Assembly (NCBI RefSeq): GCF_026151205.1
Contig: NC_087077.1
Coordinates: forward strand, 12,064,983-12,128,982
Length of the DNA: 64,000 nucleotides
Reading direction: 5' to 3'
Source: Bolinopsis microptera
Taxonomy: Eukaryota; Ctenophora; Tentaculata; Lobata; Bolinopsidae
In this document: positions 14,842 through 62,336 of the stretch, one piece after another
Position numbering within the stretch: the first letter of the stretch is position 1
How the letters are laid out: every line of letters begins with the position of its first letter
Translations under genes and position numbers: made by a program
The notes under the pieces: generated by a model
Told to the model about the DNA's origin: nothing
The model's database searches: none
Seen by the model: the letters and a program-made list of their open reading frames with translations, nothing else

Positions 14842-15540
14842 GGGGGGGGGGGGGGTGTCACGTCCGTCTATGTCCGCTTGTCTCATAGAATCCAAAAAGG
14901 ACAGGACATAGGCGGACATAGGCGGACATAGGCGGACATAGACGGACATAGGCGGACATAGGCGGACATAGACGGACATAGGCGGACATAGGCGGACATT
15001 AATGGACACCTAAATTGCTAAATAAAATGTTCAATTTTTGCTGTTATAGGGGGATCATGTTTTTTGTCCGTTCGGTACCCTATATTTTCAAAACGGACAT
15101 AAAATAGAGCGGACAAAAACGGACAAAAATGGACAAAAACGGACAAAAATGGAAATAACATTTAGATGCTTCCTCCTCTTACCACCCTACGCGCGTGGGG
15201 TGGACTCCTGGGGTGGACTTTTATTCAGCGCGTATTTTGTAGCCTGTTCAACTTGACGTTTTGAATCGTTACTATCTCAATGTCACAGATACACAGAATG
15301 TGAGGTGATCATCTTAAAGAGAAACGTCTCAGCTTTCACCTGGTGTAAAGTTTATCTTTGTTCTCAAAATATAGCTCGCTCAGTGTGCAACAGAAGTTGA
15401 CATTACAATAACCACGTCCCCGACCGGTCGTCAGATACCGGAGTCTTGCACAAAATTGGGTCCCTAAATTAAAATTTTATGACACAGTTACGATGAACTA
15501 GTGTCTAGGGAAACATTTGGTGAAAATTTGAAGGGTCTAC
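14842..15540 (+). repeat. left arm of element A with minisatellite
   Basis: G-run terminus, a 10-bp tandem array of GGACATAGGC/GGACATAGAC at about 14903-15000, then an arm-specific stretch with GGACAAAAAC units (about 15090-15150), then the inner arm 15183-15540 that pairs with 24340-24695. Confidence 0.85.
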
Positions 15541-16200
15541 TGTTAATATTGCAAAAGTTATTGAAAACAAACTAGCTTAATCAGAAGTTTTTGGGAAAAT
15601 TTCAAATTTTGCATTGTACGTAGTGGGGTGGACTCTCGTGACGCGCATCTGATGGCGTGGCTTTTTCAACAGCAGTCAGTACGGCCAATATCAGAGCACA
15701 AATTATTGTGAGTAAGACCTTAATGGTCAGCTATGAACCCCTCACTAGAATAGTAACCGTATCTAAAAACAAGGAAATGTTATTCCGTCAAAGCTCAAAT
15801 TTTTTACTCTTCTCAGTGCAGTTACTATGAATGTACTAGCTAAGTATCGTTGATCGTAGCTGCATTACACAGTAGAAGGTAACCAATACAAGGAACAATA
15901 TACAAGGAAGACTGCTGATTAACGAAGCAATATCAACGTGAACAGTTCCAAAATACATAATCATGGCGACGATAGTTCAACTTGAACCTTTATAGTTTTT
16001 ACAGTCTAAGATCACAATAAAATCACGTGAACTGCGAATCACAAAATCAAATCCCTCAAATCTGATACAGTCCCGTTACAGTACGCTTTCGTGACAACCT
16101 CAACGCTTAAAAAATAAATATTCTGCAGTCTTGTGACCACCGATGGCCCTAACTCTCCCTTGTCCGCGAGGAGCATCGTTGCGACCATGGGTTTCAGTTC

Positions 16201-17190
16201 TTAGTTCTTCCCACTCGGCTTCGATAGATCGAATTGGCTGGAAGTCAATCTATCAGAAAGACCTTTGTCGGTCTCAGGGGCGTGGTAAATTGTGGATGTC
16301 GGAGTATAAAGCTTCCTGAAAAGATTGAGACATTCACTCGGTCTGTTGTAAATATCGAATAGTCCTTGTAGGCAGAGATTTAATTTATGTTGGGTTTGAT
16401 AACTAGAGAAGGCGATTTGATATTCATTGATAGTATAAGAGTATAAGCATATAAGCATAAGTGATAAGTTTATATACCCTTTTTATGGTACCTCGATATC
16501 AGTATTGAGTAATCATCACTCAAAATCTACTTATTAAATTTATTAACTAAACAAGTTAATGTATTACCGTCCTAGAGAGGTTTTCCTGAGAATTTGAAGT
16601 CTTTGTAGGTAGCTGACATGTCTACTAAGCTCTTCGATTGAGGAGTTTTGGACCCCTCGGCGGTCCAAATGATTTATAATGCTGTGGGCATTTTCAACAT
16701 CTATCGAGCTAAACGCCCTCGCAGCATAACCTGTAGAGAATGAACATGTCATCAATGCAAAGTTCAATGATAAAAATCAGAGTGGCCGATTTCAACGGGC
16801 AGAATTCGAATATCATGGCCTTGGGGAATGGACTATTTTTTGTCGACTTTACTAACCAAACTGGCAAACGATTGTTGATTTTCGTCACTAGTCTAAAATG
16901 AAAGCAAACGTTCGGCCGAACATTTACATGATTAAAAACTTACCGCTTTCTTTCGTTATTATGTACAGACATAGCCGGGCTTGGGTTCCGCATAGATATC
17001 TTCTATCAGATTAAAGTTGAACCCACACTTTGTACTGCTCGTGGGAGGAGGAAAGCAAACTGATACCTTTTCCATGAGCATCTCGTGTAGTACCATCATC
17101 ATTTCGATTCTGATATCAGCTGCAAAATTCGTCTATTACTAAATGCAAGCTTTTCGAACTTCGTATCTTGGAAATAACAACTTCTATGAA

Positions 17191-17255
<65 letters not shown>

Positions 17256-18471
17256 TTCACTTCAGTACACTACATTACAATTACAGACACACGCAGTACA
17301 ATCAGAGACACACACTCGATACAAAGACAGACACAGGCACAAACACACAGAGTACACTTCAGTACAATCACAGACGCAGGCACAAAGACACATACAAGAA
17401 GAGCAGATTGAAGTACCTTCATTTGCAGATGTTGACGCATTGATCTGTGGGATATGTTCTTCAGTCTGTAACTGATCATCTGCTAGAACTGTCTCATCTG
17501 GATCAACCGGAGGAGTATCTTCCGGCAGGAGTCTGAGTGGGTCTATCGGGACAGCCATGGATCGCTCTCCGTACCTTGCTGAAATAAAGACAAAGGTCAA
17601 CGACGGATGTCGCATGTCAGTCCTGTAACTAAATGTAATGCAAAATAGTGAATAAATAATTTTTACATCTGAACGATTGTTCATTGATTCTTTGAATCTG
17701 TTCATTGATTCAAAGAATCAATGAACAAAAGTTCAGGATTTTACCTTCTGTTAAGCTGTTAGCACTGACTCTAGCCCCCTCTCCCTACAAAACGACCATA
17801 TCTCGGGCTGGAGCTTTCAACCGTCTTGCCTCAGCAGCCATCTAGCACAGTCGACCTGTCCTGTTAATTATGTGATCATCAAGTTACCAAATTTAATCCT
17901 TCAATATTCGAATAATTGATTATCAGACAAAACAGAGTTTAGAGCTCGACGTATGCTTCAGGGTTTCACACTGTGCTGTAATCAAACGCATGACTAAAAC
18001 CTCTTGCTACTATTACCAATGTTAGATAAACCCATATTGTTAAGGCGGTCAAATGATTTACCTGAGTTGATCGCGTCCATGAAAGGGTTCATCTGCGCTC
18101 TGTCCAGCTTGTTAATGTCCGCTCCAGCAGCCAGCAGTGCCTCCGCCTCCGTCACTTTCCCTGCTTTGCATGGCCAGTGAAGCGTAGAGCTCCCCTCTAA
18201 GCTCTGTGACGATCCGACGAAGGATCCAGATTCCCTTCTTTTCTCTTGAGATTGCTTCAATTCTTCCTGGAGTATGCGGATTACCATTTTTATACTTCCA
18301 TACAGGGCGCGTGAACAATCAGCAATGAATTATCAATTAATCAATCTAGTTTTTGAGTAAAAAGTCCACAGATTGTGATACATTGGATTTATTATTGGAA
18401 AAGACATGGCTTACCAAGTACCTTTTCATGTGCTTTTTGGAGGACAGGGATGACTTATTCCTGCGTGCCAT
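16201..18471 (-). CDS. ankyrin-repeat protein, seven-exon model (333 aa)
   Basis: Exons on the minus strand with matching phases at every junction: 18471-18422, 18294-18062, 17860-17822, 17578-17417, 17119-16967, 16730-16568, 16402-16201 (stop). Exon 2 holds an ankyrin repeat (STLHWPCKAGKV, then AEALLAAGADINKLD). Exons 2-3 join into a second partial repeat ending CARWLLRQD. The remaining ~210 residues are acidic then helical, with no domain I recognise. The donors of exons 3 and 5 are weak. The exon 1 frame is open upstream to an acceptor near 18495, so the true start may lie further 5'. A gypsy element sits about 90 bp upstream of the ATG, probably in the upstream intron. The gene is enclosed by the arms of element A. 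Function unknown; ankyrin repeats usually bind proteins. Confidence 0.6.
17194..17252 (+). repeat. (CA)n microsatellite
   Basis: About 29 CA units, with imperfect ACACA-rich sequence continuing to about 17400. It lies in intron 4 of the ankyrin-gene model. Frames reading His-Thr repeats here are artefacts. Confidence 0.98.
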
Positions 18472-18561
18472 TTCACCATAACTATCTGCTGTAACAGCAA
18501 AAATTAGAATTATGTCGGACATAATTCTAAAAAATTGGAACATTGTAGTTAATCAGTGTGG

Positions 18562-18690
18562 TGTTATAAATTGATACTATATTTTATATTTAGACTGATA
18601 ACTGATCACCTATTATATTTTGTAGGGTCTAGGTTTAGATCCTGATTCACGATTTCCCTGTTTCTCTTGTACCACGGCTAAGACGTTACA
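18562..18690 (+). repeat. 5' LTR of gypsy element 2
   Basis: 129 bp, TGTTATAAATTG to GACGTTACA, followed directly by the gag ATG at 18691. The stretch TGGCGACGAGG overlapping that ATG is the likely primer-binding site. Confidence 0.95.
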
Positions 18691-21600
18691 ATGGCGACGA
18701 GGATTATTGGACAGTTGGAACTCTTAACATCAGATGCAGATTGCAGAACATGGTTTGAGAGGTTTGAGTTGTTCGCTCAAGCCAATCAGCTATTCAGAGC
18801 GGTACCAGCAATACCGGAACTCGTTAATGACAACAGCAACGCTGCAGCAGTGGAAACAGCAAGGACGGATGCGCAGAATGCGACTCAAGGAAATACCGCA
18901 GTTTTCCTATCGTACTTGGACAGTGGCATGTATGGGCTAATCAAGAGTTTGAGCAACCCAGATGAAGTGAGATTGTGCACCTATGACACCCTGAAGAAGA
19001 GGTTAGTAGATCACTTGATGCCGCAACCTGCAATACATCTTCAGAGATATAAGTTTTCTTCCTGCAAACAAGTGAACGAGACAGTTGGTCAATACATCAA
19101 CAAACTGAAAACAATCGCAACCTTTTGTGACTTTGAGAACTTTCAGGAGAGAATGCTTGATCAATTTATTGCTGGAATGAAGAGTGTGAAAATGAAGAAA
19201 AGGCTGTTAGGGGAAGCCAACTTAACTTTTGAGAGAGCGGTAGAGTTAGCTTTAGCTGCTGAGAAGACAGAGGAGGAAGCAGCGCAGATGAACATGAGCG
19301 AGAGTGATGTTAACAGAGTATCATGGGAGAGACGGGAGCCGAACAAATTCAAAGCTTCAGTTGTATGTACGAGATGTACATTGAGTGGACACACTAAGGA
19401 CGACTGCAAAACTAAATGTTTCAAATGTAAGAAAACTGGACATATCAAGAAGAACTGTTATGTTGTGAAGAAAACTCACAATGTTGAAGAGCAGAGTGAA
19501 ATTGAGAGTCAGAGTCCAGATGTCAATAGTTCTTTGGAGTGGTCAGTGAGACACGTGAATGTGTCAGGTAACGTTACGGTGTCAGGTAATGTTATTGAAC
19601 CACTTGAAATTGGAATTGATAATGTTTTTTGTCAGAAACCAATGGTTAAAGTTACTATTAATGATGATATTTTTTTGAATATGGAGTTTGATAGTGGCAG
19701 TAGTGTGAGCGTAACAACGGTACAAGCTTTGTGTGAGAGTGCTCGTGTGAGTTCGTCAGTTGTGTATGATGCACTGGTAAAGACGAAGAACACTCTGAAA
19801 GTTGCCAACGGCGAGATTAAGTCTATACTCGGGAAGATGAAAGTTAAAGTGAATTTTAAAGGTAAATGTAGAGAGAACATGGAGCTGTATGTTGTGGAGG
19901 AACCGTTTCCGACTCTCTTTGGCAGAACTTGGATTCAAGTTTTCTGTGGTTACGATTGGTTGGAACAGCTATTCAATGGAAAAGACCGTGTTGTGTCTAA
20001 TGTACCCTCTAAATGTAGTAAGTTATGTAGTAGTGTAGTGAAGTGTGATCAGTCATGTAATTCTCAATGTTCAGTAGATGTTTTAGGTGAGATGAGAGGC
20101 GAGTCGTCTTGTGTAATGTCTGTTGTTGACAAAGACGAAGAGTCAAAGATTGGTAAAGACGAAGAGCCAAAGATTGACAAAGACCTTCAGAGTGAAGAAG
20201 GATACCCTCTCAACCAAGTCTCTGAAGGAATAGTAACTGAGAAGATGATCACGGATTACGTGGAAAGTTTAAAACACGACAAGATATTCAAACCTGGAAT
20301 TGGACAGATCAGTGGAGTCGAAGCTAAATTCACGCTGAAAGAAGAAGCTCAACCCGTATTCTTAAAGGCTAGGAACTTGCCGTATTCTCAACGAGAGAAA
20401 GTCAAGAATGAGTTGATGTCCTTGGTTGATCAGAATATCTTGGAGAAAGTTGAAAGCAGTACCTGGGCTACGCCTATAGTAGTTGTCGAGCGTGGGCCAA
20501 AGTTAAGGATATGCGGTGACTACAAAAGTACCCTCAACAAGCACCTAGAGACAAAGATGTATCCTTTACCGAGTACTGAAGAATGCTTTAATTCAATGGT
20601 TGGAGGACAGAAGTTTTCAGTTATCGATGTGAAGTCTGCTTACAATCATGTGAAAGTCAGAGAGAAGGACAAGAAGCTTACAGTGATAAACACTCATCTC
20701 GGTCTATTTCAATGGAATAGATTACCCTACGGTGTGTCAAGTAGTAGCGGTATCTTTCAGGAGACCATGGACAACACGTTGAAAAACATTGATAAAGTTT
20801 GCTGTAGGATCGATGATATTTTGATATCAGGAAAAGATGACCGGGAGCACTTGCAGAATCTTCAAGAGGTAATACGACGATTGCAGGAACGAGGATTTCG
20901 GTGTAACCGGGCTAAGTCCAAGTTTTTTCAGGACTCAGTTGTTTATTTAGGTCATCAGATATCAAGACATGGAATACAGCCAGTAAAATCCAAGGTGGCA
21001 GATTTGAAAGCAGCTCCAGCACCGACTAACCTGGCCGAACTAATTTCATTTCTGGGTGCGGTCAACTACTATCGTAGATACCTGCCCAACTTAAGTTCAG
21101 TTATTGAACCTCTAGATAGTTTGAGATCATCACCATGGAAATGGACCAAAAAGGAGGAAGTAGCATTCAAAGAATTAAAAGACATGCTCTGTTCTGATGC
21201 AGTGTTGACGCTGTATGATCCTAACAAGAAGTTGAAGCTTGACACTGATGCCAGCAGCAGAGGACTTGGAGCGGTGTTGAGTCACGTGGACAAAGAAGGA
21301 GAAAGACCGATCGAATACATATCACGAACTTTATCGAAAGCCGAGAAGAACTACAGTCAGATTGATCGTGAAGCCCTAGCTATAGTATGGGCGGTCACAA
21401 GATTTCATGTGTATTTGTGGGGAAATCATTTTGAGTTAGTGACGGACCACAAGCCATTAACATTTATTTTTGACCCAAAGAAGAAACTGCCAGAGATGGC
21501 CACAGCTAGAATAACTCGATATGGATTGACCTTAATGAGTTATCAGTATAGCATCAAGTACAGACCTACCAAAGATCATGCCAATTGTGATGTACTTTCT

Positions 21601-23082
21601 AGGCTGCCAGCGCCTACTAAACACAAGGAGGAGACCACTATTTATGACACAGTCCTCAAGGTCACGATGGAAGAAGCATTGTTAGATGCAGGACTAGTGG
21701 TCAGAGAAACGATGAAGGATCCGATTCTATCTCGTGTGTTTGCTTACACTATGGAGGGATGGCCAGCAAAACTAGACTGTACTAACGAAGAGATGAAAGA
21801 ATTTCAGAAAAGGAAGACCGAACTATCTACGGAGCAAGGATGCTTGATCTGGGGAAATCGAGTGGTAATACCTGTGAAACTGAGGCAGTCAGTGTTAGAC
21901 ATGTTGCACTTGACTCACTCAGGGGTTAGCGGTATGAAGACAATTGCGAGGAGCTATGTTTGGTGGCCTAATCTTAATCAAGACTTGGAGAACATGGTAA
22001 AGACATGTGTGGAATGTAACAAGTTTGGTAGATCAGCACCAGCTTTAACAGACCATCCGTGGTGCCGACCCACTGGACCATACCAGCGCATCCACATGGA
22101 CTTTGCAGGACTATTCCAGGGACACATGTGGTTACTTGTTCAGGACGCCTACTCTAAGTGGCCTGACATTGTTAAGATGAACTCAACGAAAACAGGAGCA
22201 CTGATTACAGTTCTAAGACACATATTTGCTAGAACTGGGTTACCATGTGTCGTTGTATCAGACAACGGACCCCAGTTTACTTCAGAGGAACTCAGAGTTT
22301 TCTTCAAGCAAAACGGAATAAGACACATTCCAACACCGACATACCACCCTAAATCTAATAGCATCGCAGAGAGACTGGTACAATCGTTCAAGAATTCTAT
22401 GAAAAAGATGTGGAATGACTCTAAAGACTTGGACAAGAATCTCAATAATTTCTTGTTAACTTACAGGAACACTCCGCACGCAACCACAGGTCAGACACCA
22501 GCAATCATGATGTACAATCGGACATTAAGATCTAAGTTACACATGCTCACGCCGCATGACAAGGAGAAAGTGGAAAACTTGCAAGCTGACAAACAAGAGC
22601 AAGTGTTGCAGAGCAATCCTAGAATATTTTGTCCAAAGCAGCCAGTACGTGTCCAGATTGATGGAAAAGAATGGAGACCAGCCACAGTAGTGCGAAGACT
22701 GGGCGAATCATCCAACACATATGATATTGAGCATGAAGGACGCATCATCAGGAAGCATGCTGATCACATTCAAAGCCTGAGAAGACCTATTATCTCTCTT
22801 CAACAAGATAACGTATCTGACAAAGACCCTGTTTCAGTGAGAGGTGAGACAGTGAGTGAGCAGCAGGATGTTAGTCCGTTAGTTGAACCTGGTATAGTTG
22901 ACCCTGATATTGAACTGCCAGATAATTTACGAGATAATAATGATGAACCTTCTGAGATTGATATTAGAGATGACGTTATTGCTAGACAGCAAACTGATGA
23001 TGAAAATGTTAATGTTAGAAGAGCAAATCTGAGAGATGTACCTCGGGTAAATTACAAAATGTTAAACAGATATGGCAAGTAA
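18691..23082 (+). CDS. gag-pol polyprotein of gypsy element 2 (1463 aa)
   Basis: Single open frame starting at the base after the LTR. Gag contains a long helical region, then two CCHC knuckles near residues 228-257 (CTRCTLSGHTKDDC and CFKCKKTGHIKKNC). The protease has FDSGSS, so Ser replaces the Thr of the usual DTG. RT shows VIDVKSAYNH and the catalytic IDDIL. RNase H starts LKLDTDASS. Integrase has an HHCC finger (THSGVSGMK through CVECNK) and catalytic positions at MDFAG, SDNGP and the Glu of SIAERL. A tail of about 120 residues follows integrase. No stops or shifts. Confidence 0.96.
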   Translation: MATRIIGQLELLTSDADCRTWFERFELFAQANQLFRAVPAIPELVNDNSNAAAVETARTDAQNATQGNTAVFLSYLDSGMYGLIKSLSNPDEVRLCTYDTLKKRLVDHLMPQPAIHLQRYKFSSCKQVNETVGQYINKLKTIATFCDFENFQERMLDQFIAGMKSVKMKKRLLGEANLTFERAVELALAAEKTEEEAAQMNMSESDVNRVSWERREPNKFKASVVCTRCTLSGHTKDDCKTKCFKCKKTGHIKKNCYVVKKTHNVEEQSEIESQSPDVNSSLEWSVRHVNVSGNVTVSGNVIEPLEIGIDNVFCQKPMVKVTINDDIFLNMEFDSGSSVSVTTVQALCESARVSSSVVYDALVKTKNTLKVANGEIKSILGKMKVKVNFKGKCRENMELYVVEEPFPTLFGRTWIQVFCGYDWLEQLFNGKDRVVSNVPSKCSKLCSSVVKCDQSCNSQCSVDVLGEMRGESSCVMSVVDKDEESKIGKDEEPKIDKDLQSEEGYPLNQVSEGIVTEKMITDYVESLKHDKIFKPGIGQISGVEAKFTLKEEAQPVFLKARNLPYSQREKVKNELMSLVDQNILEKVESSTWATPIVVVERGPKLRICGDYKSTLNKHLETKMYPLPSTEECFNSMVGGQKFSVIDVKSAYNHVKVREKDKKLTVINTHLGLFQWNRLPYGVSSSSGIFQETMDNTLKNIDKVCCRIDDILISGKDDREHLQNLQEVIRRLQERGFRCNRAKSKFFQDSVVYLGHQISRHGIQPVKSKVADLKAAPAPTNLAELISFLGAVNYYRRYLPNLSSVIEPLDSLRSSPWKWTKKEEVAFKELKDMLCSDAVLTLYDPNKKLKLDTDASSRGLGAVLSHVDKEGERPIEYISRTLSKAEKNYSQIDREALAIVWAVTRFHVYLWGNHFELVTDHKPLTFIFDPKKKLPEMATARITRYGLTLMSYQYSIKYRPTKDHANCDVLSRLPAPTKHKEETTIYDTVLKVTMEEALLDAGLVVRETMKDPILSRVFAYTMEGWPAKLDCTNEEMKEFQKRKTELSTEQGCLIWGNRVVIPVKLRQSVLDMLHLTHSGVSGMKTIARSYVWWPNLNQDLENMVKTCVECNKFGRSAPALTDHPWCRPTGPYQRIHMDFAGLFQGHMWLLVQDAYSKWPDIVKMNSTKTGALITVLRHIFARTGLPCVVVSDNGPQFTSEELRVFFKQNGIRHIPTPTYHPKSNSIAERLVQSFKNSMKKMWNDSKDLDKNLNNFLLTYRNTPHATTGQTPAIMMYNRTLRSKLHMLTPHDKEKVENLQADKQEQVLQSNPRIFCPKQPVRVQIDGKEWRPATVVRRLGESSNTYDIEHEGRIIRKHADHIQSLRRPIISLQQDNVSDKDPVSVRGETVSEQQDVSPLVEPGIVDPDIELPDNLRDNNDEPSEIDIRDDVIARQQTDDENVNVRRANLRDVPRVNYKMLNRYGK

Positions 23083-23391
23083 GCAACGTGATATTTCAAT
23101 AACCAGTCACGATGACCAGTTTTTAAGAAATTGTTTTTTAAATTAAATTATAACTTTTATACAGTAATCCAAGTTTATAATTAGCCGGGAGCACTAAGTT
23201 TGTTTTTAGATCACTCGAGTTCTGACAGTGAAAACACGAAATTTTTGATTTTGCGCCTCACAGAAAGTTGTTTGCCGGCCGAACTGATAATCTAAGTGCA
23301 GTGCGGCGCGGCGTTAGCATTTAATAAATGCGCGTTTTCGGGAACGAGACGCATTTTAACATGTGCTTTCCGATCTAACGAGAGAGAGAGC

Positions 23392-23520
23392 TGTTATAAA
23401 TTGATACTATATTTTATATTTAGACTGATAACTGATCACCTATTATATTTTGTAGGGTCTAGGTTTAGATCCTGATTCACGATTTCCCTGTTTCTCTTGT
23501 ACCACGGCTAAGACGTTACA
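23392..23520 (+). repeat. 3' LTR of gypsy element 2
   Basis: 129 bp, reads identical to the 5' LTR. Preceded by the polypurine tract at about 23381-23390. Confidence 0.95.
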
Positions 23521-24339
23521 TGTGGTGCTAACAACAGAGAGCGATTTGAACGGTAGGCAATTTCATAAATTTCATTAACTCGATATAAGGATGATTGGAA
23601 CAGGCTAAAATCTACAATGTGGCATTAATAACTGGCTATATCGCTGCATTAAACGATTAAAGTATTGCTAACTATGGATATTCTAAGTGATCTAGGCAGA
23701 GGGGAACCGGCACAGCCAGATTGCGTTGTCTTCACTTTCAGTGACTAAGTTTCACGATAGAAAAATTGACCTAATGTATTTAAAAAAAAGGATGCACAGT
23801 TCAAGCAATAAATCGATCGGCTGCTCATATGATATTTGCATTTAAAGGAGGGCCTAGTGCAGTGACCAGTAAGTCTGTTAAGGCAAAGATAAGTGAGTTT
23901 CGAGAAAGTGCACACGGATAAAGTTATCAAGTGACAATGATAAGACTAAGTTAGGGTCAAGTCAACAGAATGGCAGCTGTAACAGAAACAGTTCATTGGA
24001 TAGGGGAGTAGGGGATTATGACGGAGTGAAATTTATTTAGCAGGGCAAACAAAAAACAACTGACAGCACTGAGCAAGTGAACTGGAAAATTGAGGAACGA
24101 AAATAACAGTGGTTGTCAGCCCTTTCCGTAGCAATCAGGATTTCCCACCAGATCGATCAGGCAATCAGGATTTCCCACGAGAATGTTCGAGCCAACGCGC
24201 GCACTTGTGTCACGTGACGGCCACGTGACGCTCTAATCGTTGTCACGTGGTACAGAAGGGAGGTTCCTAGAGCGTTGATCTCGACAAGAGGGAGTTTCTC
24301 ACGGTTTATCTTCAATAACTATCGCTATTTTTATAGTAG
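23521..24339. other. interior of element A, no gene seen
   Basis: This stretch lies upstream of the ankyrin gene (minus strand) beyond the gypsy insertion. It could hold the gene's 5' untranslated exon and promoter. CACGTGAC-type motifs cluster at 24210-24250. No coding exon is supportable. Confidence 0.4.
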
Positions 24340-25775
24340 AGAGTTGAAACTTTCACCAAATGTTTCCCTAGACACTAGTTCATCGTAACTGTGTCATAAA
24401 ATTTTAATTTAGGGACCCAATTTTGTGCAAGACTCCGGTATCTGACGACCGGTCACGGACGTGGTTATTGTAATGTCAACTTCTGTTGCACACTGAGCGA
24501 GCTATATTTTGAGAACAAAGATAAACTTTACACCAGGTGAAAGCTGAGACGTTTCTCTTTAAGATGATCACCTCACATTCTATGTATCTGTGACATTGAG
24601 ATAGTAACGATTCAAAACGTCAAGTTGAACAGGCTACAAAATACGCGCTGAATAAAAGTCCACCCCAGAAGTCCACCCCACGCGCGTAGGGTGCTTACTC
24701 TTCCTCCTCCTCCCCCTGGGTCTTCCTGATCTTCCTCAGTCCTCTTCCTCCTCCCCTCCTCAGTCCTCCTCCTACTCCTCCTCCTCGTCCTCAGTCCTCC
24801 TCATCAGTCCTCAACAGTCCTTCTCCTCCCCAGTCCTCCTCCTCCTCCTGAGTCCTCCTCCTGGGTCCTTCTCCTGGGTCCTCCTCCTCCTCTTCATCCT
24901 CCTCCTCTTCCTCCTCAGTCCTCAGTCCTCCTCAGTCCTACTCCTCATCCTTCTCCTCATTCTTCCATCCTCCTCCTCAGTCCTCCCCCAGTCCCCCTCC
25001 TCCTCCTCCTATTCAGTCCTCCTCCTCCTCCTCCTTCTCAGTCCTCCTCAGTCCTCCTCCTCCTCCTGAGTCCCCCTCCTCCTCCTCCTCCTCCTCTTCC
25101 CTCTCAGTCATCCTCCTCAGCCATCCTCCTCAGTCCTACTCAGTCCTCCTCCTCACTCCTCCTCCTCCTGGGTCCTCCTACTCCTATTCATCCTCCTCCT
25201 CGTTCCTCAGTCCTCCTCCTGGGTCCTCCTCCTCATCCCTCTCATCAGTCCTCCTCCTCCCCAGTCCTCTCCCAGTCCCCCTCCTTCTCCTCCTATTCAG
25301 TCCTCCTCCTCCTCCTCCTCCTCCTCACTTCTCCTCAGTCCTCCTTCTCATTTCTCCTAAGTCTTCCTCCTGAGTCCTCCTCCTGAGTCCTCCTCCTCTT
25401 CCTTCTGAGTCCTCCTCCTGAGTCCTCCTCCCTCTCAGTCATCCTCCTCAGTCATCCTCCTCAGTCATCCTCCTCAGCCATCCTCCTCAGCCATCCTTCT
25501 CAGCCATCCTCCTCAGTACTCTTCAGTACTCTTCAGTCCTCAAAATGTTTGTCCGCTAATGTCCACCAATGTCCGCTAATGTCCACCAATGTCCATCCAA
25601 GTCCGCCAATGTCCGTCCGGGTCCGCCAATGTCCGTCCGAGTCCGCCAATGTCCGTCCGAGTCCGCCTATGTCCGTCCGTGTCCGCCAATGTCCCAAAAA
25701 ACACGTCCGTTGTCTCATAGAATCCAAAAAGGACAGGACATAGGCGGACATAGACGGACATGACACCCCCCCCCC
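24340..25775 (-). repeat. right arm of element A
   Basis: The inner part 24340-24695 is a near-exact reverse complement of 15183-15540. The outer part 25546-25775 holds GTCCGCCAATGTCC-type units and ends in the C-run. The two parts are separated by about 850 bp of CCT-rich repeat absent from the left arm. Confidence 0.85.
24700..25545 (+). repeat. CCT/AGTCCTCCTC-rich low-complexity tract
   Basis: About 850 bp of irregular TCCTCC and CAGTCCTCC units, one strand almost purely pyrimidine. It expanded inside the right arm of element A only. Open frames across it are compositional. Confidence 0.92.
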
Positions 25776-25985
25776 ATTATAGCTGTGAGTGTCAATAAAT
25801 TACTGTGTCATAAAAAAAGGAACGATGTACACGTGATCTGAGATACCAATATCTCAATATCTAAAGGATAGTGTCTAGAAACATTCATAGTCCATGGTGA
25901 TTGGTGGCAGGTATCAAGTTAAACGAAGTTACACTGACTGGCAATGTATACGATTGCCGTCTCCCTCTCTCACCCCTGACCGCTA

Positions 25986-26381: not shown

Positions 26382-26734
26382 CTCTAAATCAGTAGGCTGT
26401 CACTGTATTAATGCACCACACCGCCACCTCCACTGCACTAAAAGTTATTCAATAAATTCTACAATCCTAATTTTGTATCGTGATGGAGACTGGTGTCCAT
26501 ACAAAACATTTACTAGGTTGCCATTTGGTGTGAGCAATAGCGAACAGCACGCACACTCTTTTGCCACGTCAACTTATATCTAATCTATTTAAAGAGTGAC
26601 AACCATACTACACATTTGTGGCAAATCTCATAGTATAAAGATTACAGGAAATGTCAAACAGTATATATAGGGGGGGGGTACCACTGTCCATTTTATCCCT
26701 GCACAAAAACAACTGAAAAAAGACAAAGACAAGA

Positions 26735-26940
26735 GGGACAAAAGGGACAAAAAAAGATAATAGGGACAAAAAAGACAAAAAAGACAAAAAAGACAAAAAA
26801 GACAAAAAAGACTGGGACAAAAAGGACAAAATAGACAAAAAGACAGGGACAAAATGGACAAAAAGGACAAAAAGGACAAAAAGGACAAAAAGGACAGGGA
26901 CAAACGAGACAAATAGACAGGGACAAAATAGACAGTAAAG
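26735..26940 (+). repeat. GGACAAAAA minisatellite
   Basis: Tandem ~9-bp units GGACAAAAA/AGACAAAAA. They form the left sub-terminus of element B. Overlapping minus-strand frames reading Phe-Cys-Pro/Phe-Leu-Ser repeats are artefacts. Confidence 0.93.
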
Positions 26941-27057
26941 AAAATAAGGTCAATTATCCGTTGAAATGCAAAAAATAAGTTCAGGCACAGTTCCAACAAG
27001 CTAATAAGTTGGGTAAATTCAGACAGAAGTAGAACAGTAAAGTCAATCTTGGTTATA

Positions 27058-28505
27058 TATCCACCAGCGTGCGCTTTTTCGCATAGCGGGCTCTCACCAG
27101 CCCGCTGTCAAAGGGCCCGATATCTCTACAGCCCGCTCATGATATAGCCCGCTAACAAGTGACATTTAATTTGACCAGTAGCAATATAGCCCGGAGTTCT
27201 CTAAAATATTTTCAGTTTCTGTATCGTCTCCTGATGATACATCTCGCTGATGATACATCTCGTGAGCAGATGACATGAAATCTGAACACTGAACAGTGTG
27301 ATTGATCCACACTTACACACTACACAGTACACTTTAATAGTTCCCACGGAAATATGTGGATTTAAAGAATGTATCAACTCTGAACTGTGAGCTCACCAGT
27401 CACCTTATGTTATATCGGATGCTATATCATATCAGTTTTCACGCAGATTGCCATGATTGGCTCATAATTAACACGTGACACACTGTTACTATGGTTACCA
27501 AATTCGTGGAGACGTTAAGTCTAAGCCTGTGATATCCATTAGTGTCGATAATTGTTTTGTGTTTACCATTTTCAGTTCACTATTTCAGTTGATAAACCTT
27601 GAAATTTAGGCCGACATTTTACGTGTTATTCTATTATGTTCCCAAAAGATATTTTGCCCTGTTTTTGTTTTGAAACTGCCATTTAAATTGATGTTATAAA
27701 TTTGATCTTTAACTTTCATATTCAATGTCCATTGTCCATGATCAGACTGTGATCTCGAGCTCTCTGGGTTACTACTTTTGATTGTCCAGTCACTCAGTAG
27801 CTGCTACAGAAACTCTAGTAACTGGTTACCTGGGTAACCCTGGTTACCCTGGTAACTGATAATGACAACTCACGTGGTATAAGTAGCAGCTGCTCTGTGG
27901 CGACTGGCGGTGCTTGTTCTGGTTCCAGGGAGGGAGAGAGGTAGAGAAGTAGAGAGGGAGAGAAAGAGAGGGAGAGGAGGAGAGAGGGAGATGAGGAGAG
28001 ATGGAGATAAAGAGAGAGGGATAGAGGGAGAGAGGGAGGTAAGGAGAGTGGGAGAAGGAGAAAGGAAGATAGGGAGAGAGTGAGAGAGTGAGAGAGGGAG
28101 AGAAGGAGATAAGGAGATTCAGGGAGAGAGGGCCTATATTTTGATTGTTTACAATAAAATTATATGTACATGAAACAATGAGCTGAAACATTGTTTGATA
28201 GCAGCCGGTTTTTCGTTCTATAGTCAGTCATTTTGGCCTGTTTTACATCTTAAACCAAAAGCAACATGATTTTTTCGTAACTTTTCTGAAATCTTGTACA
28301 TTAATTTGCTGTGATTGTTGCAAACTGAAGCTTCGTGATAAACGCCCGCTGATGGATATACACGATATCATTCCTCGCCTCGAGGGCGGAACTATCGTAT
28401 TAGAAACATGTTGAGAGTAAAAGTGAAACTAAATTAAAAAAGGATCTCTTGAAGAAACTAAAGTAAAAACTAATATCTGTAAGAAAAAGCTCACGCTGGT
28501 GGATA
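27058..28505. mobile_element. TA-flanked inverted-repeat element C, nested in B
   Basis: Terminal inverted repeats TATCCACCAGCGTG(C/A)GCTTTTT lie at 27058 and 28505, with TA next to each end (27056-27057, 28506-28507). The interior holds no transposase frame, only low-complexity DNA, so it is non-autonomous. TA targets suggest the mariner/Tc1/pogo side; the family is not established. Confidence 0.7.
27925..28130 (+). repeat. GGGAGAGA purine-rich tract
   Basis: About 200 bp of irregular GGAGAGA/GGGAGA units inside element C. The minus-strand frame over it reads Ser/Leu/Pro-rich and is not a gene. Confidence 0.9.
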
Positions 28506-28514
28506 TAATCCACA

Positions 28515-28690
28515 TCACCTCGACCCGCGGGCGGAAAAATCGTATAGCACTCGGGCCCGATGGGCCCTCCGTGCTATACGAAAATATGTCCTCCTCGGGC
28601 TAGCGCCCTCGGGGACATATGAAATATTGCACGCCCGTGCGCGTGCAATATTTTGTTCCGCCCGCGAGTCTCCGGTGATATGTATATATA
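28515..28690. other. cluster of three perfect hairpins inside an outer palindrome
   Basis: Outer arms CCGCGGGCGGAA and TTCCGCCCGCG enclose three successive palindromes: CGTATAGCAC...GTGCTATACG, ATATGTCC...GGACATAT and AATATTGCACG...CGTGCAATATT. The whole can fold into a multi-arm junction. A partial relative of the outer arm lies at about 28345-28400. Probably a foldback-type mobile unit. Confidence 0.8.
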
Positions 28691-28883
28691 TCAGCCTTAG
28701 TGTGCTCACTGTTCAAGACAACTTGGTCTAGTGCCTGCTCACTGATTCACATTTGAAGTTTGAGCTGAACTTGCATTGCAAACAACACTCAAAAAGCAAG
28801 ACAACTAATATTGCACTGAGGGGATACAGAGGAAGAGATATAACTACTCTGTTTAGTGAAAGAAGCAGTTTCATGAGCCTGAT

Positions 28884-29970: not shown

Positions 29971-29974
29971 CAAG

Positions 29975-31846: not shown

Positions 31847-31849
31847 TTT

Positions 31850-46700: not shown

Positions 46701-49700
46701 GACAATCCATCTTGTTTTTATATCACAAACCATACTGGTGCAATTCAGCCATCTGATCACACTGACAAATGCGACCGTTAACAAGGAACCATGAGAGGAT
46801 ACAGAGAAGAGCACACCAAAAATAGAGCACAAGATGCTGACTCGCCACTTTCTCTCCAACAAGCAGTAGTCGCCTTTGAATCGGAGCATTGTTGCGGCTA
46901 TGACGATACAGCACAGATACACTCCCATCAGCAAATCGAAAAAGAATATTTGGAGACGAAAAATTCTGTCAATTTGACCGGTCTTTGAATTCATTTGGGA
47001 GCGATAGCATTTGTATCCCTCTACAGAGTTGATGATGACGATGAAGAGCCCCATGAAAATTGTGACTACTAGAACCGGTATGGATTGAATAAGGAACTTG
47101 GAGGAGGACACAAATCCGTGATCACATGTCCCACATTCATCACTACCGTCAGCACAATCCTTCACATGATCACATACTTTGACAGGATCAATCCACACTG
47201 ATGTTGAGTTTGGGCTGCAATAGAACCTGCCCGGACATCCAATTTCATCTGCCCCATTTTCACAGTCTTGCTTTTCATCACACAATGCTGTCACGTGGAA
47301 AGACTCCGTTCCAGATCTAAATGGATCTTTCTCACAGTTGAAAACAAAGTCCGCCTCTGACCACATATCCCAAAATATATGGTCACAAAATTTTACCCAA
47401 TTTTCCACCACGAAATCTGTCTCGTCAGTGCAATTATATTTGCAATAAGATTGTATGGAACTAACAGGATGTTCATGCACTAATTTCATAAATGACTTCC
47501 GGTTATGTCTGTATTGTCTTTCCAGACACGAGTACAAGGGACTAAGTTTATTTCCCTCCTTAATCCGATTCCGAACAGCCTCACATTTATCAGCGTCACT
47601 CTTATCTGAAATAATGCATTTAAAACGAGTTAACTTGGTATCCAGGCCTTCGCACGTCTGCCAAACAGCAGGCAAACAAATAGGAGTGCTGCTGATTAGC
47701 GGGCAAAAAATCTTGATAACATCTTCACAGTAACACTCATCAGACCCATCAATGCAGTCCCGGGTACCATCACATAGACCGTCGAACGAGATGCAGCCTG
47801 AGCCGTCAAAGCAGTAGAAAACTTCAGTCAAGTTATTTTTGCAGCTACACTCATCAGTGAGGCACTGAGACACTCCATCACAGACGTTGTTATCAGCCAG
47901 AGCACAGGTCCATTCTGCATCTTCATCATTTGCTGCCAGGACTACCTCTTCGACATAGAATCTATCGATGACATTGACGTGGTAAGGCCAAGGGTCGAAG
48001 TTGAACCGACAGATGGTGGCACTATTTCCTATTTCTTGGGTTACCCCTTGTATAATATCTTCCAGCAGGAATCTGGCATATTGGTAGCAGTTTGACAATA
48101 TGCTCTCTCGGTCTTTGGCTAGAATAAGAAAGCTGAGAAATGAAGGCTCTCCGGCGACCTTCCTAAAATCAACTGCAAACTCTTTCCCCTGAGGACTAGT
48201 ACCCGGAACTTGGGATGGACAGAGCGTCAGAAGAAGCGGCAAGAAGGCACGCCAAAATGAGATATACCTCATTTTCCCTCTATTCAAGTGTACCTGGGTT
48301 GACTTACTTGAGAGAACAGCTGGGTTGACTTACTTGAGAGAACTGAAAAGGGCTGAGGATCAGGAGGACTGCTTCTACCGAAAAATGTCCACCTTTTATA
48401 CGCTAATTTGTGTCGCTGTAGCGAATGGCCGTGATCGAACTCTAAGAGATATCGTCGAAAGAAATTGATGCCTTCATTTTGTCGGAGCTTAATTATTGTT
48501 ACCTGGGGACCCCAGGCTATTATGTTCATTTAAACATATAAAGATCGGCGGAATGACAGACTGATCGCGGGACAGTAAAAATATTGTAGTGTACTGAATT
48601 GGCTGCACAGAGGTCACGCTATTGATTTCTGCCAATAGAATGAAGTCGTGTCAGGGCTCTCGTGACAGATCGTGATTGTAGATACTTGTTATGTTAATGA
48701 GCAGCAATTGTTTCCTGGGCATCCACTTACTAAATATTGGGAGAACAGACAAAGTCTTCAACTTCATTACTTTCTAGTCGAAATTTATACTATAATTCGA
48801 AAGATTTATAATATGCATGGCAAATAAAGGTAAATTCGGTAAAAAGCAAAAGATTGAATATTAACCATGGTAACGGCGTTGGAACGCGCACGTGCACGTG
48901 CAATGCTTTTTGGGACGGCATTTTGATCGGTTTTGTGATAATTATGTTGTGTTTAAAGTTTTTTTACATTTAAATCGGCTGTATCTTCGGTTGGAATGGA
49001 TATTTTTGGATGCGATTAAACCTGTTTCAAAGAATACCACTAGCTTCCTCCTTGTTACCACGGGCTTTCTAGTTAATATTATAATTCGAAAGAGATTCTC
49101 TTTGTATGTCTGTCTGTAAGACCGCCCACGTGTAAATTAGGTAAACAAATACAAGTTGCGTACTAACCATGGTAATTGGTAACGGTGTTGAAACGCGCAC
49201 GCGCAAAGATTTGCGAACGACATTTTGATCGGTTTTGTGGTAATTACGTTGTATTTCGTGCTAGCAACATTTTAATTGGCTGTATTTTTGGTTGCTGATT
49301 TTTTGATGCGATAAAAACTTACTATCAAAGAATACTATTAGCTTCCTCCCTGTGACCATGGACTTTCTAGTAAATATATAAATTAGTAAAGTATATAGTA
49401 ATTAAGCTAATAATCTAATAATCAGATCGTGATCAGAAAGTGAGAGAAACAGCGGGGAGATGCGGTTCCAGGTTAGGAGATGAAAATAATCTAAACACTG
49501 CCGCTGCTAGCAAGGTCCTCCAACACAGGTGGGGCTACATTTAAAAACTATCTTAATAATCGATTGGGGGGGGGGGGGGGGGGATCAACCTCATAAATAC
49601 CTATTATTCCCTCCGATTTCAAAATAGGTATAGGTATTCATGTATATTTATGAGGTTGATGCCCCCCCCCCCCCCCCAAATCAATTACTTAATTAACTAT

Positions 49701-52700
49701 TAATTAACTCTGTATGCATACAATGATAACAAATCTGTCTGTATAAGTTCTTAAATTACAAATTTGCAAGGTTCGAGAAGCAGTTAGAAGCACTGGACAC
49801 AGTTATCAGGAATCACATCAAACTCCACCAAGAAGACCAAGGTGCTGCCAATTTTCTCGCTTCTTTTCCGTTCGAGGATTACATAGAGACAGAGCTGGAC
49901 TTTACTAAAGCTTTGGGAAAGTACGCCGAGAAGCTATTCTTTCCCGGTATTAACCGAGTTCATGGAAACCCTCGGGATTGCGCTCTGGTGGGAACGGATG
50001 GGGAGGATAAAGAGAATTCAAGACGGTCACTTACCGGGAATTATAGGTACACTCCTTATAGGTACACTCCTTAACCTGATGTTTGTGTGGGATGACCTGG
50101 GCACTGTTATACTACTATATCATTAAGTTCTAGTAGTAAACTTCTGGGGGGGGGGGGGGGGGGGGGGGGGGGATCAGGTACCAAGTGCCGTACGTGACGT
50201 CGACTAAGTGCAATTTTGGAATTTTTCAAAAGATCCACCCACCCCCTTCGCGCTACTAACTGTTTCTCCGGATAATTATAAAGACACTCACCCCTTTTGC
50301 CGGCTTTTGTGGTACTAACTGTTGAGAAATCACGGTACTAACTACTAACTGTGCCTTGGTATATAAAATAAGATACCCACCCATAAATTGCTTTAAACAG
50401 CTCATTAAACATTGGAAATGGGCAAATTATACCCACTATTTAGTAGGGGTTTTGTTTTCAATGTACGGTAGTCGAATTAGATAAAAAGTTACAAACAAAT
50501 TTTAAAAATTACAAAAACCAAAAAAACCTCAAAACCCATTACCAAAATTGAAATTTGAGGTAAAATGGGTTTTTTGGGGTTGGACACCCCCTTTAGTACC
50601 ATGTACTAAATGTTTTTCTGGGAAATAAGCAGCAGACCAACCACTTAGTAAGTACTAACTGTGTTTTGGAAGAAAATATGACCCACCACCACAACGTCAC
50701 GTACGATTCTGACCTTATGATCCCCCCCCCCCCCCCCCCCCCCGAAACTTTAGGGCTTACATTATAATTAATCTATACCTAGACAACATCTTCAGGAAAG
50801 TCTAAATACAAGGCTATGTTGACTAATTAACTAGACAAAATCTTCAGGAAAGTACGGGATACTGTTCGCAGAGTAAAAAGCACATATTTGGAGAGACAAG
50901 AAGAGACAATAGCAGAGACAGTGAATATGGCCGCCAGTCAGGCCAAGATAGAAGCTCTGAAATCACTTATAGTGGACTTGACGGGAGACAAATATCCGAA
51001 GGATGAAGAAACACTGAATACAATGGCACAAGAGTACAGCATAGCGTGTATCAGAAAAGAGGATGATGTAAGAAAAACGTTCTAAAATTATCGACGTTAT
51101 CATTTATAGCTTGTTGGTGTCGGAGAAACATTTGATATATTGCTTATTCTTATATTATTATTATGTAAAATATTAATTTAACATTGGCCAATTAAGTAAG
51201 TACTAATTAAGGTAGTACTCTGAAATTGTATTACTCCTCGCAGATAAAGATGCTGTGGCACACTGAGTGTGTACCCCTTATGAATCAGCTGAAGAATTTA
51301 CTAGACGTTTCTATCTTGTGTGGTAATCCTATTTCATATAATTAGATTTGTTTATATTTATAGTTAATCATTTGGAGGCCGTACGGTATCATTTCTGTTC
51401 ATACCAGAAATTTCAATTACGATGTAGAGGTGAGCAATAATTGCCTTTAGGCTTTTCCTAGTTTCAAAGAAACCTCGATTGAAAAATAAAATCATTCTGT
51501 CTCAGGAAACTATAAATTGAAGCTGGCCAGACAGAACTACTTTATATCAAGACAAGACAAAATAATAGATAACCTGCTGTCTCAGCTCTCACGACAAGAG
51601 TTGTTACAGTTAATGTTGGAACACGAACACAGGTAACGTGACGTCACATCATATGTGCCATGACGTCATAATCATAAAACGTAATGGCAGCACATCACCA
51701 CTGCTGCCTCGATAGTTTATAGGTAAAATGTGGAATTATTTTCAAAACTTCACATATATGTATAACCTTCGACCACGTACTACATTATCAGTTATCACGT
51801 GGTACATTAAAGGAGTCGTTAAGATATTACGTAATCAACCGAGGAGGAGGGGGGTTTCCAAATCATAACGCTACTGATTACGGACGGGGGGGGGGGGGGG
51901 GGGGGGATTGTTTAAAAAAGTGATTACGAAATGTGTGAACGACCCCTTATGTCCCACACCATTAAATTGACGGGAACACAGGACACACAAAGAGAGCGTG
52001 GATCTACTACAAGAAGTCTTAGGTCATGTGTCTCTGCTAAACAGGACTATGACACAACAGCGTTCCTTGGTAAACGGAGACGACGCTGTCCGCCCTGTCA
52101 AGGTAACGAGCTGATCTCAACTTTACTATTAGCAGTAATTCCAAGTTCAATCAGATTACCCCTCCGTTTATCAGATGATAACACTGAACAACACTACTTT
52201 TACTACATGTCACTGAACAATACCACACATTCCGATCCAGGTAAACAAGCTGTGTCTGTGTCCCAACGACAAGACCCTCAACTCCACGATAACAATGTTA
52301 CGGACCTACCTTAAACAAGACTCTCACAACATCTTCCACACGTTCGAGGACCTAGCTGGAGCTATCAGCGCTCTGGTTAAAGAGGTGGGGGAAGCGAAGG
52401 AGGACTCGTCTGTTGCGACCAGCACTGTTTCTAATATAACAGCGTCTCTGGTGAGTTCTTTAATTATAGCTGATTTGTTGACTGAGTAATGGAGGTATTT
52501 AGAAATAGGGTACCGTGTAGTGATTCATGATTTTCGTGGAATATCAAGATGTTAACTCAAGCATATTTTACTTATCAAGTTATTACATCAGGATCAGGAC
52601 TTGTCAGGATGTGCTAAGTGTATAGATAAAGGTTTCACCAGCACAACCCACGAAGAAGACAGACTTGGTAAAGAAATAGAGGAGCTCGAACACCTGGCCT

Positions 52701-59920: not shown

Positions 59921-59980
59921 CCAAATCTACTGTCTATCACGCTCACTTGAAATCCGACCCTTTATTGATGATGATCACTA

Positions 59981-61342
59981 CCTTATCGGACTTTATTTGG
60001 ACGGACATTAATTGAACGCTGGAGGCCCTAACGTTCATCTTAATGTCCGTTCAAATAAAGTCCGTTCATTTAAGGTCCATCCAAGTTAAAGTCCGTTGAA
60101 TTTTTTCAAAAATTTTTCCACTTCGAACTTTTGGTCCAGAATATGACAACTATGAGAACTTTATTGTGCCGTAAGTTAACGACGGAAAGGTTCTCCTTGG
60201 TCTGCCGGAGGCACAGAAAACTCTGATGATATGTGATATTAGACACTGATCATGTACACATATTTTAACATTTTTACTGCTTAACAACTGCTTTTCTTAC
60301 TTACTGTATAAAAATGGATTTAAAAATCATTTGCCGAAATAAAAAAAGGTCAACAAAAATACTGATTTTTGATGGTTTTGAATGCCTTCTAGCGTTCATA
60401 TTAATGTCCGTTCATAATCATGTCCGTTTATGTAATGTTCGTCCAAATAATGTCCGATAAGGTAGTTATTCAGGACCAGCTAGAGAATGGGTTTAAAAAG
60501 TCACGTGATTTAAAAAGTGTAGAGTGATTAATCATCATCCCATAAAACAACCTGCTGTACAGCTGCCCTAATGGAAATTATTTGCTGAACTAGAGAATGA
60601 ATAAAGGAATAAGCCAGCAGCGATGCAATTGGATAAAAGTTCAAAATGTTATACATAATTATGATAATTGAAGTTCGAGCGAAAATAGCAAGTTTTAAAA
60701 AGTTACGTTCAGCACAATTTGATGGACGGAGAAAATTGAAAATTGAAAATAAGACACAAGTCCTGAAAGGATTTTCAGGGATCAAGAGCTGGCGGTGGGA
60801 TTGAATGATAAATTAGATTAGCCGACTGAATGATTCGATGAAACAAGAAACATTTTAAGACTGTATAATTGGTGTGGAACAGCCCTTAAACATTCTTGAA
60901 TTTATGGAGGATTTCTGGAATTTATGGAGGGTTTCTGGAAATGATCTTACTTTACCTCACGTTTGCACCCCGACACTAAGTAGACCGACAATGGTATAGG
61001 GGTCACGACAGTGGTATGGGGGTCACGACTTCATACAAATCTTAATCAGGTAACCGAAAGTTAAACCAGTAGAGGAATCCCATGAGCTAGTCCCCACCAA
61101 CATGACAAACTTGTTCCAGCCTCTTGATATTACGGTAAATCGTGTTGCCAAGGACATTGTCCGACGTTGTTATAGTTCATATTACTCAGGGGAGGTAATG
61201 AGACAGTGCTAGGAAAGCTCCACGTGATGTTAAGGTTAACCTAAAGTTGTCTAAGATAAAACCACTTCACGCCGAATGGTTTGTAAAAGTTAACACTGAA
61301 ATGCAGGACCGGGATAGTTAGTCCAAATAAGGTCCGATAAGG
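59981..61342. mobile_element. TA-flanked inverted-repeat element K (1.36 kb)
   Basis: Ends CCTTATCGGACTTTATTTGGAC and, from the other strand, CCTTATCGGACCTTATTTGGAC; TA flanks each (59979-59980, 61343-61344). The duplicated loci at about 62966-62990 and 63966-63995 read straight through as GATCACTATTTA, i.e. they are empty sites. A second inward-facing terminus at 60462 suggests a nested or rearranged copy. The interior has TGTCCGTT repeats and no transposase. Confidence 0.85.
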
Positions 61343-61534
61343 TATTTATATTCCTATCGTCTAGCTATTCCAAGTTGTTATTTTTAATTTCGGTCAATTT
61401 CAACTTCTATCAACAAAAATGATCTGCTAAATTTTGAAAAAAAAACGCCCAAAAAGATGAAATGTCTTCGAGCGTTCATTTTAATGTCCGTTTAAAAATA
61501 TGTCCGTTCACGAAATTTCCGGTCAAATAACGTC

Positions 61535-62336
61535 GGGGGTGATGCAACGTCAATTAATGTCAGTATTCCATAAAAACCCCAAACTGACATTGACATTAAT
61601 TGACATTAATTGACATTAATTGACATTAATTGACATTAATTGACATTAATTGACATTAATTTGTCTTGAAATTTGAGATTATCATTATTCGATAAATATT
61701 CAAGATATTCACGTCTATGTAAGTTAGACCGGTTCAAAAAAACAAAATGTCCTTGAATAATTATGAGTATGTTCTTATCTGTTGATCCTTAGGTTCAAAG
61801 ACCACAAAAAAAAATGTCAGCTTCCAACTCTTCCATCTTCGGTCCCCACCGGCCACGCCCATATTTTATTGGTTTCTTATACAGGTAAAATATCTAGAAT
61901 CGGCTTTTTTAGTATGAAGGAGTAATGTTAGCTGTTTAAGATTCGTTATTCAAATATAAATGTCATGAAGGCATTTCGTTTAATGTGGGTTTTAAGTTCT
62001 GATGATGTTGAGAACCACGCCCTTGGATGGCCACGCCCATTTAAGAAAATTAAATTTCGGGAAACCGTATTATTTTAGTTTTATTGTTTAATGATCTGAA
62101 TTTTTTTCACATTTCACATTTCCATATGTGATAGTAGTGAATAAATTGATGATATAAACGTTCTAAAGTGCTAAAAATATGGTAGAACTACATAATCTCT
62201 GGTCGAAAAATATCGTGTCAATTAATGTCAGTATTCCAAAATTTTGCAAAACTGACATTGACATTAATTGACATTAATTGACATTAATTGACATTAATTG
62301 ACATTAATTGACATTAATTGACGTTGCATTCCCCCC
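61535..62336. mobile_element. G-run-ended inverted-repeat element D (802 bp)
   Basis: Left end GGGGGTGATGCAACGTC then AATTAATGTCAGTATTCC. Right end, other strand, GGGGGGAATGCAACGTC. Exact 8-bp flank ATAACGTC at 61527-61534 and 62337-62344. TGACATTAAT-type 12-bp tandem units lie near both ends (61595-61660, 62258-62325) in the same orientation. No coding frame. Confidence 0.85.

Follow-up and report, generated by a model that had tools for sequence, protein, structure and literature searches.

According to published accounts, Merlin elements have 5'-GG ends, 8-9 bp duplications and internal tandem repeats and are present in ctenophores (PMC8101967); IS3EU elements make a 6-bp duplication and have TAYGG..CCRTA ends, and hAT staggers are reported over 5-8 bp (hAT5, hAT6, hAT7) (both PMC12730594); Galileo, placed in the P superfamily, has multiple transposase binding sites in its long inverted ends (PMC3688188); and Dada elements make 6-7 bp duplications, have sub-terminal inverted repeats, lack terminal inverted repeats in the families described there and insert into small-RNA genes (PMC3706591). 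Here we analyse a stretch of 64,000 nucleotides from the ctenophore Bolinopsis microptera (hereafter the window; C6:12064983-12128982), which holds six segments with a run of G at the start and a run of C at the end. The host genome comprises 264,652,675 bases (264.65 Mb) in 232 contigs, of which C1 to C13 are chromosome-sized. We conclude that these segments probably represent several non-autonomous families of class II DNA transposons that have similarly built ends, are mobilised by two or more transposases cutting with 6- and 8-bp staggers, and keep or expand their run by slippage. We found no description of G-run-tipped transposons among the titles and beginnings of abstracts listed in literature searches (Repbase and most subscription papers lay outside this search).

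The six segments were numbered fam1 to fam6 in order of position (Table 1). The original prediction, made from the sequence of the window alone, had described them as units of a possible new transposon class with G-run starts, C-run ends and inverted sub-termini. All six are present at the places predicted, the run of the first beginning one base earlier, at 14841, and a local inverted alignment of both ends was obtained in 6 of 6; for segment 2 (fam2) the best-scoring alignment lies inside the arrays, and matching tips were seen separately. The four exact flanks that had been listed, ATTATA(G), TATATA, TGTGTTA and ATAACGTC, are precisely those of the 4 of 94 G-run/C-run pairs in the window that have an exact repeat. 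The two segments credited with near-matching flanks (49566-49677 and 50146-50743) are indeed multi-copy repeats, but no duplication was demonstrated for either; fam4 was inspected in seven loci and one array, and fam5 was counted outside the window, with sequence in hand for one end (L073) only.

Flanking repeats are more frequent at G..C pairs than at random positions and in the C..G, A..T and T..A controls. We paired runs of at least five G with runs of at least five C over spans of up to 15 kb, and took as flanking repeat an adjacent exact direct repeat of at least 6 bases. The 4 of 94 window pairs compare with ~0.17 expected from random position pairs (356/200,000), and with 1/101 C..G, 0/58 G..G and 2/143 C..C control pairs, both of the latter in one minisatellite. 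Twenty extra loci of nine to ten kilobases, picked for containing fam1 and not a random genome sample, gave 20/686 for G..C against 0/407 for C..G, 4/6141 for A..T and 2/5702 for T..A. The same-letter controls were also elevated there (G..G 43/2222, C..C 16/804), an excess that may be due to minisatellites or tandem arrays. When inverted sub-termini were required, in the window and the 20 loci together, a repeat was found in 28 of 51 G..C pairs, as compared with 0/22 C..G, 1/304 A..T and 0/313 T..A pairs; we judge 5 of the 28 to be low-complexity or palindrome artefacts.

Duplications were counted strictly, in fetched copies with both ends recognised, as the longest exact match abutting both runs without a gap. 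The duplication is 6 bp in 16 of 20 fam1 copies (the other four score 5, 3, 1 and 0; one of the 20 rows, L019:1301-5610, joins the left end of one copy to the right end of another) and in 9 of 13 fam2 copies (the other four score 4, 3, 1 and 0; L061 and L066, on two contigs, appear to be one insertion). Unless a run base is borrowed, 6 bp is the longest match in fam1 and fam2. For fam3 it is 6 bp in 7 of 11 copies and 7 bp in 3 of 11 (6 or 7 in 10/11), and in the one copy scoring 0 a seven-base match sits one base off the right run. Strictly counted, fam6 has 8 bp in 10 and 7 bp in 7 of 17 copies; with one run base included, 8 bp in 16 and 9 bp in one, that is, at least 8 bp in 17/17 (L051 was excluded, its right run being lost). 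In a swapped-flank control, matches of at least 6 bases occurred in 6/380 (fam1), 0/156 (fam2), 1/110 (fam3) and 0/272 (fam6) pairs. Thus the G-run and C-run tips of four families directly border true target-site duplications, as predicted for mobile elements. Left out of these counts were a fam2-like copy (L020:745-4366, flank ATTATC) and a fam1-like copy (L024:1208-9209, flank ACTAGT). A further family, fam7, has a tip followed by TCAACCTCATTTTACCTCAT and a 6-bp repeat, TGAACT, in its single copy (L011:1903-7843).

Target preference also differs. The fam1 duplication favours a central TA, with T at position 3 in 15/17 and A at position 4 in 15/17 (16 exact copies plus L024, failing copies omitted). 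Among nine fam2 duplications, T occupies position 3 in six and A or G position 4 in eight; the twelve fam6 duplications show no central-TA preference. Each family has its own duplication length (fam1 and fam2 6 bp, fam3 6-7 bp, fam6 8 bp). In view of this, and of the restriction of the central TA to fam1 as against fam6, the proposal of a single system common to all, cutting loosely at 6-8 bp, is not supported.

Empty sites were found for fam1 and fam6, in both cases as paralogous copies, not alleles. At L021 a fam1 copy is inserted within a fam6 copy, with AATATA doubled around the insert. The L021 flanks joined minus one AATATA are found in 15 fam6 copies that are intact there, with 1 to 3 mismatches per 80 bases; 14 of the 15 have a single AATATA at the equivalent site and the 15th has AAAATA, and the fam6 copy of the window (61919-61998) is among them. 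For fam6, inspection by eye showed that insertions L034 and L038 occupy two diverged copies of the same repeat, with their duplications offset by two bases, so that each shows the other's target unbroken. For fam1 and, by eye, for fam6, the empty site thus lacks exactly the unit and one of its flanks, as anticipated for a transposon. The G-runs are absent from these empty sites.

The ends of the families share a layout. In all 12 ends listed, CA begins no more than six bases from the run, and in most families the run is followed by 9-11 bp direct repeats, which are in inverted orientation at the two ends and turn round further inward. We measured periodicity as the autocorrelation of the end sequence against 500 base-composition shuffles. 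At lag 10 it was 0.71 and 0.47 for the fam1 ends and 0.70 and 0.68 for the fam6 ends; all four ends exceeded all 500 shuffles, with a best lag of 10 in three and of 20 in the other, the second fam1 end. The best lag was 9 at the left and 22 at the right end of fam2, and 10 at both ends of fam3 and of fam7; for the two fam3 and the two fam7 ends, 6, 0, 1 and 4 of 500 shuffles were as good, in the order given.

Termini were counted across the genome by one end motif per family; since these motifs are neither equally long nor equally strict, the counts should not be read as relative abundances. We found 359 exact copies for fam1, 40 copies for fam2, 89 for fam3, 43 for fam4 (one mismatch allowed; 15 of them within a single tandem array on C9), 102 termini for fam5 (at most one mismatch) and 408 for fam6, the most by these patterns. 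Matches on the + and - strands are frequently paired, with a span characteristic of each family: among the places listed, mostly 0.25-0.4 kb for fam3, ~0.8 kb for fam6 and 0.7-3 kb for fam2. The runs themselves vary. Left fam1 runs are 7 to 32 bases long and right ones 6 to 50, and the two lengths are unrelated (Spearman 0.22, p 0.37, n=19), which suggests slippage. Runs of fam6 are only ~5-7 long. The suggestion that the G-run is recognised as a G-quadruplex fits neither the short runs of fam6, the family with most termini, nor the uncorrelated runs of fam1, which go from 6 to 50.

As predicted, no transposase was visible in the frames examined of the window segments and the fetched copies. 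Of six window frames scanned against Pfam, one matched retroelements (a Ty3/gypsy polyprotein), one gave a weak ankyrin match and four matched nothing; in the fam2 copy of the window, frame 28860-29291, the sole one scanned of those listed in 26901-29600, matched nothing in Pfam. Ten G-run elements from the fetched loci were screened for frames of at least 80 residues, with low-complexity ones filtered out, and most of these frames look coded by repeats. One was scanned, a frame of 350 amino acids inside the fam1 copy of L025, and it matches RNase H, as found in retroelements. Six long fam6 copies (L049-L054) contain other inserted sequence and were rejected as autonomous elements; none of the six frames scanned in them (from L049, L050, L051, L052 and L054) matched a transposase. 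One L049 frame matches reverse transcriptase below the Pfam cut-off and the other five match nothing, two of these, in L052 and L054, looking like reverse-transcriptase products; L053 has no frame of at least 70 residues. The DDE_Tnp_IS1595 transposase domain was found in none of the G-run element frames scanned. Genome searches for the KDZ transposase (PF18758) and the P-type RNase H domain (PF21787) gave 0 matches each, with the controls silent too.

The elements have terminal inverted repeats, duplications of fixed length (fam1, fam2 and fam6) and an empty site, as class II elements with such repeats do. Class II mobilisation is deduced from the ends and duplications, because no autonomous partner was found. 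Each end has a terminal G-run (5 to about 50), CA within six bases and then, in most families, 9-11 bp direct repeats, inverted between the ends. A DDE-type transposase supplied by another element would bind the sub-terminal repeats and join the G-run tip to the target cut, with a 6-bp stagger for fam1, fam2 and probably fam7 and an 8-bp stagger for fam6, and the G-run would lengthen and shorten through replication slippage and not serve as a quadruplex signal. The 6-bp and 8-bp staggers would then call for two or more transposases; among the candidates for fam6 is one of Merlin type (IS1595-like). A new superfamily cannot be claimed, because the transposase is lacking.

Several observations weigh against several separately mobilised families. 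Some copies fail the duplication test (4/20 in fam1, 4/13 in fam2 and 1/11 in fam3), fam4 and fam5 have no proven duplication and no convincing periodicity, and fam7 rests on one copy. No G-run-tipped autonomous partner was seen in the fetched copies, the genome searches for it being limited. In addition, the ends of fam1 and fam2, and those of fam1 and fam6, are more alike than shuffles (0/200 each), which may point to a single group of related enzymes even though the staggers differ.

It is possible, though unlikely, that fam6, with its 8-bp duplication, is moved by the Merlin transposases of this genome, with the 6-bp families depending on some other enzyme. The genome has 58 Merlin-domain matches, 18 of which lack a stop and lie in open frames of at least 295 residues, and Pfam confirms the domain in frames of 318 and 337 amino acids. 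The three Merlin families that we delimited (Table 1) have GG at the tip, sub-terminal repeats of 11 or 15 bp and duplications of 8 bp (with a mismatch in one), in keeping with the GG ends, 8-9 bp duplications, tandem repeats and presence in ctenophores given in PMC8101967. Against this, no G-run was found among 20 Merlin-A end matches, by a pattern blind to runs of at least 12. GG is present in 19 of the 20, the other being internal sequence, and a third G is present in 4 of the 19, lying within the duplication (two) or in unpaired flank (two). Among six close Merlin-A end pairs, judged by eye, four have an exact 8-bp duplication, one has it with one mismatch and one has none. The resemblance of fam6 ends to Merlin-A ends is also weak (7 and 8 of 200 shuffles as good), and the nearest Merlin match lies 30 kb from a fam6 end (100 of the 408 fam6 ends compared with the 24 matches on C1-C4). 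From fam2 the nearest is 279 kb away (38 of 40 fam2 ends, all 58 matches).

Merlin tips as the source of the G-runs were tested and found unsupported, the Merlin-A tips being GG or GGG. In L091, a Merlin-like locus, the apparent end reads GGGGG, yet a second copy, L095, shares the last G only, so that no G-run tip is shown there; no proven G-run-tipped end was seen in the Merlin loci inspected (L075-L096, part of the 58 matches). When 12 family ends were compared with five Merlin ends, 6 of 60 tests had at most 10 of 200 shuffles as good, with ~3 expected and the sequence repetitive. The lowest scores were those of the fam1 left end against D (1 of 200) and the fam2 right end against A (2 of 200), and this resemblance is not counted as evidence.

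We regard as rather doubtful an unnamed DNA-transposon lineage with a conserved G-run tip, whose transposases would need a homopolymer-G end plus phased 10-bp repeats and whose stagger would have diverged to 6, 7 and 8 bp. One new superfamily, in which a single transposase lineage recognises the G-run tip in all families and related versions cut with a 6-, 7- or 8-bp stagger, is likewise improbable. A single lineage that reads the G-run is conceivable because fam1 ends resemble those of fam2 and fam6 beyond shuffles and the layout recurs across families, down to the CA near the run, and the 5-8 bp stagger range of hAT, as reported in PMC12730594, offers a precedent. However, each of fam1, fam2 and fam6 has a single duplication length, their target preferences differ, 13 of 15 between-family end comparisons are not beyond shuffles at the 1-in-20 level, and no transposase is seen.

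That the G-runs are preferred targets, later expansions or homopolymer assembly errors rather than element ends is highly improbable, for although left and right run lengths vary widely and are independent of each other, the duplications of fam1, fam2, fam3 and fam6 enclose the runs on both sides, and the absence of the runs from the empty sites contradicts the preferred-target part.

The structural signature, a G-run, CA near the tip, ~10-bp sub-terminal repeats, a C-run and an exact duplication, identifies several repeat families and fixes their boundaries. If one enzyme lineage were responsible, transposase end recognition would include a homopolymer. If there is no single lineage, convergent G-run tips with different staggers raise the question of why such tips are favoured.

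Other features were noted in the window and elsewhere. The reading of segment 1 as a single transposon of 10.9 kb was rejected, for a 9.5-kb element, itself holding a Ty3/gypsy element, is nested in what is a fam1 copy. The nested element is missing at that place from other fam1 copies; its CAC tips and 5-bp repeat presumably recall Transib. The Ty3/gypsy element has short repeated ends near 18560-18691 and 23391-23521 (by eye), and a second gag-pol type frame, of 1455 residues and similar layout by eye, lies at 7501-11868 on the - strand. The window also contains tandem arrays at 34862-36658 (331-bp unit, 98 percent matches), 54520-55097 (41-bp unit, 99 percent matches) and 45207-45897 (42-bp unit, 88 percent matches), the last overlapping a receptor-like coding frame (by eye).

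On C9, locus L074 (C9:622950-623870) is an array of 15 tandem ~54-bp units, and every unit closes with a fam4 end and a C-run, the length of which varies; the array is a G-run element end turned satellite. Some fam6 ends share outer flanks with each other (C1:2646902 and 2649664; C1:4294510 and 4329592; C1:4991182 and 5005496; two cases inverted), a pattern suggestive of segmental duplication or rearrangement between copies of fam6. Merlin elements of 3.4-3.8 kb (L078, L080, L082-L087; C11:745518-749296; C1:17443936-17447361) hold a second open frame besides the transposase, which starts with zinc-knuckle-like cysteine motifs (by eye) and looks alike in both families. The terms 'second ORF' and 'zinc knuckle' are absent from the main text of PMC8101967.

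Table 1. Features of the window and delimited Merlin families. Positions are those of the window unless a locus is named.
Feature	Position	Strand	Description
fam1 copy	14841..25775	+	G15 ... C10; 6-bp duplication ATTATA at 14835-14840 and 25776-25781; enlarged by nested element
fam1 left sub-terminal array	14904..14999	+	10-bp unit GGACATAGGC
Element nested in fam1	15183..24693	.	long inverted ends starting CACCCTACGCG; 5-bp flanking repeat CTTAC; frame with weak ankyrin matches
gag-pol open frame of Ty3/gypsy-type element within 15183-24693	18682..23082	+	Pfam scan
fam1 right sub-terminal array	25550..25694	+	~20-bp unit with TGTCCGCCAA
fam2 copy	26670..29650	+	G9 ... C6; 6-bp duplication TATATA
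fam3 copy	30949..31342	+	G6 ... C5GGC7; 7-bp flanking repeat TGTGTTA
fam4 unit	49566..49677	+	G18 ... C16; ends ATCAACCTCATAAATA; candidate duplication only
fam5 unit	50146..50743	+	G27 ... C22; ends ATCAGGTACC / ATCATAAGGTC; candidate duplication only
fam6 copy	61535..62336	+	G5 ... C6; 8-bp duplication ATAACGTC at 61527-61534 and 62337-62344
fam6 left sub-terminal array	61589..61661	+	10-bp unit ATTGACATTA
fam6 right sub-terminal array	62257..62322	+	10-bp unit ATTGACATTA
C14 run, then inward fam5-type end ATCAGGTACTAAGTGCC (on - strand)	63779..63792	-	single end recognised
Merlin A			3779 bp; GGCAACTTGTACG; AATAATAA/AATAATAT; 11-bp sub-terminal repeats
Merlin B			3426 bp; GGTAACTCGG; ACTTAATT; 11-bp sub-terminal repeats
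Merlin C	L077:746-2613		1868 bp; GGCAGTCTAC; GGAATCAG; 15-bp sub-terminal repeats

Compared with known systems, the G-run families share single features with several. Foldback-type elements (FB, Galileo, Tetris) also have inverted ends made of short tandem repeats; FB belongs to the Mutator group, and we know of no G-run tips in elements of this type. The 6-bp duplication common to fam1 and fam2 is found in IS3EU, but the TAYGG..CCRTA ends are not, and here the G-run directly abuts the duplication. A 6-bp duplication is also made by Polinton/Maverick elements, which carry DNA polymerase B and integrase genes, and would fit fam1 and fam2. Dada differs in its choice of target, as the 11 compared fam3 insertions have differing flanks. 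The hAT elements span, within one superfamily, the stagger lengths found here, but hAT-type ends differ from a G-run tip. Merlin differs in that the Merlin-A tips seen here are GG or GGG with no run, and in that the duplications of fam1, fam2 and fam3 are not 8-9 bp. It is like the G-run families in its GG tip, in the 8-bp duplication of fam6 and in its sub-terminal tandem repeats; Merlin-type (IS1595-type DDE) transposase frames are open in this genome, and all the G-run families do start with at least GG, albeit as a run.

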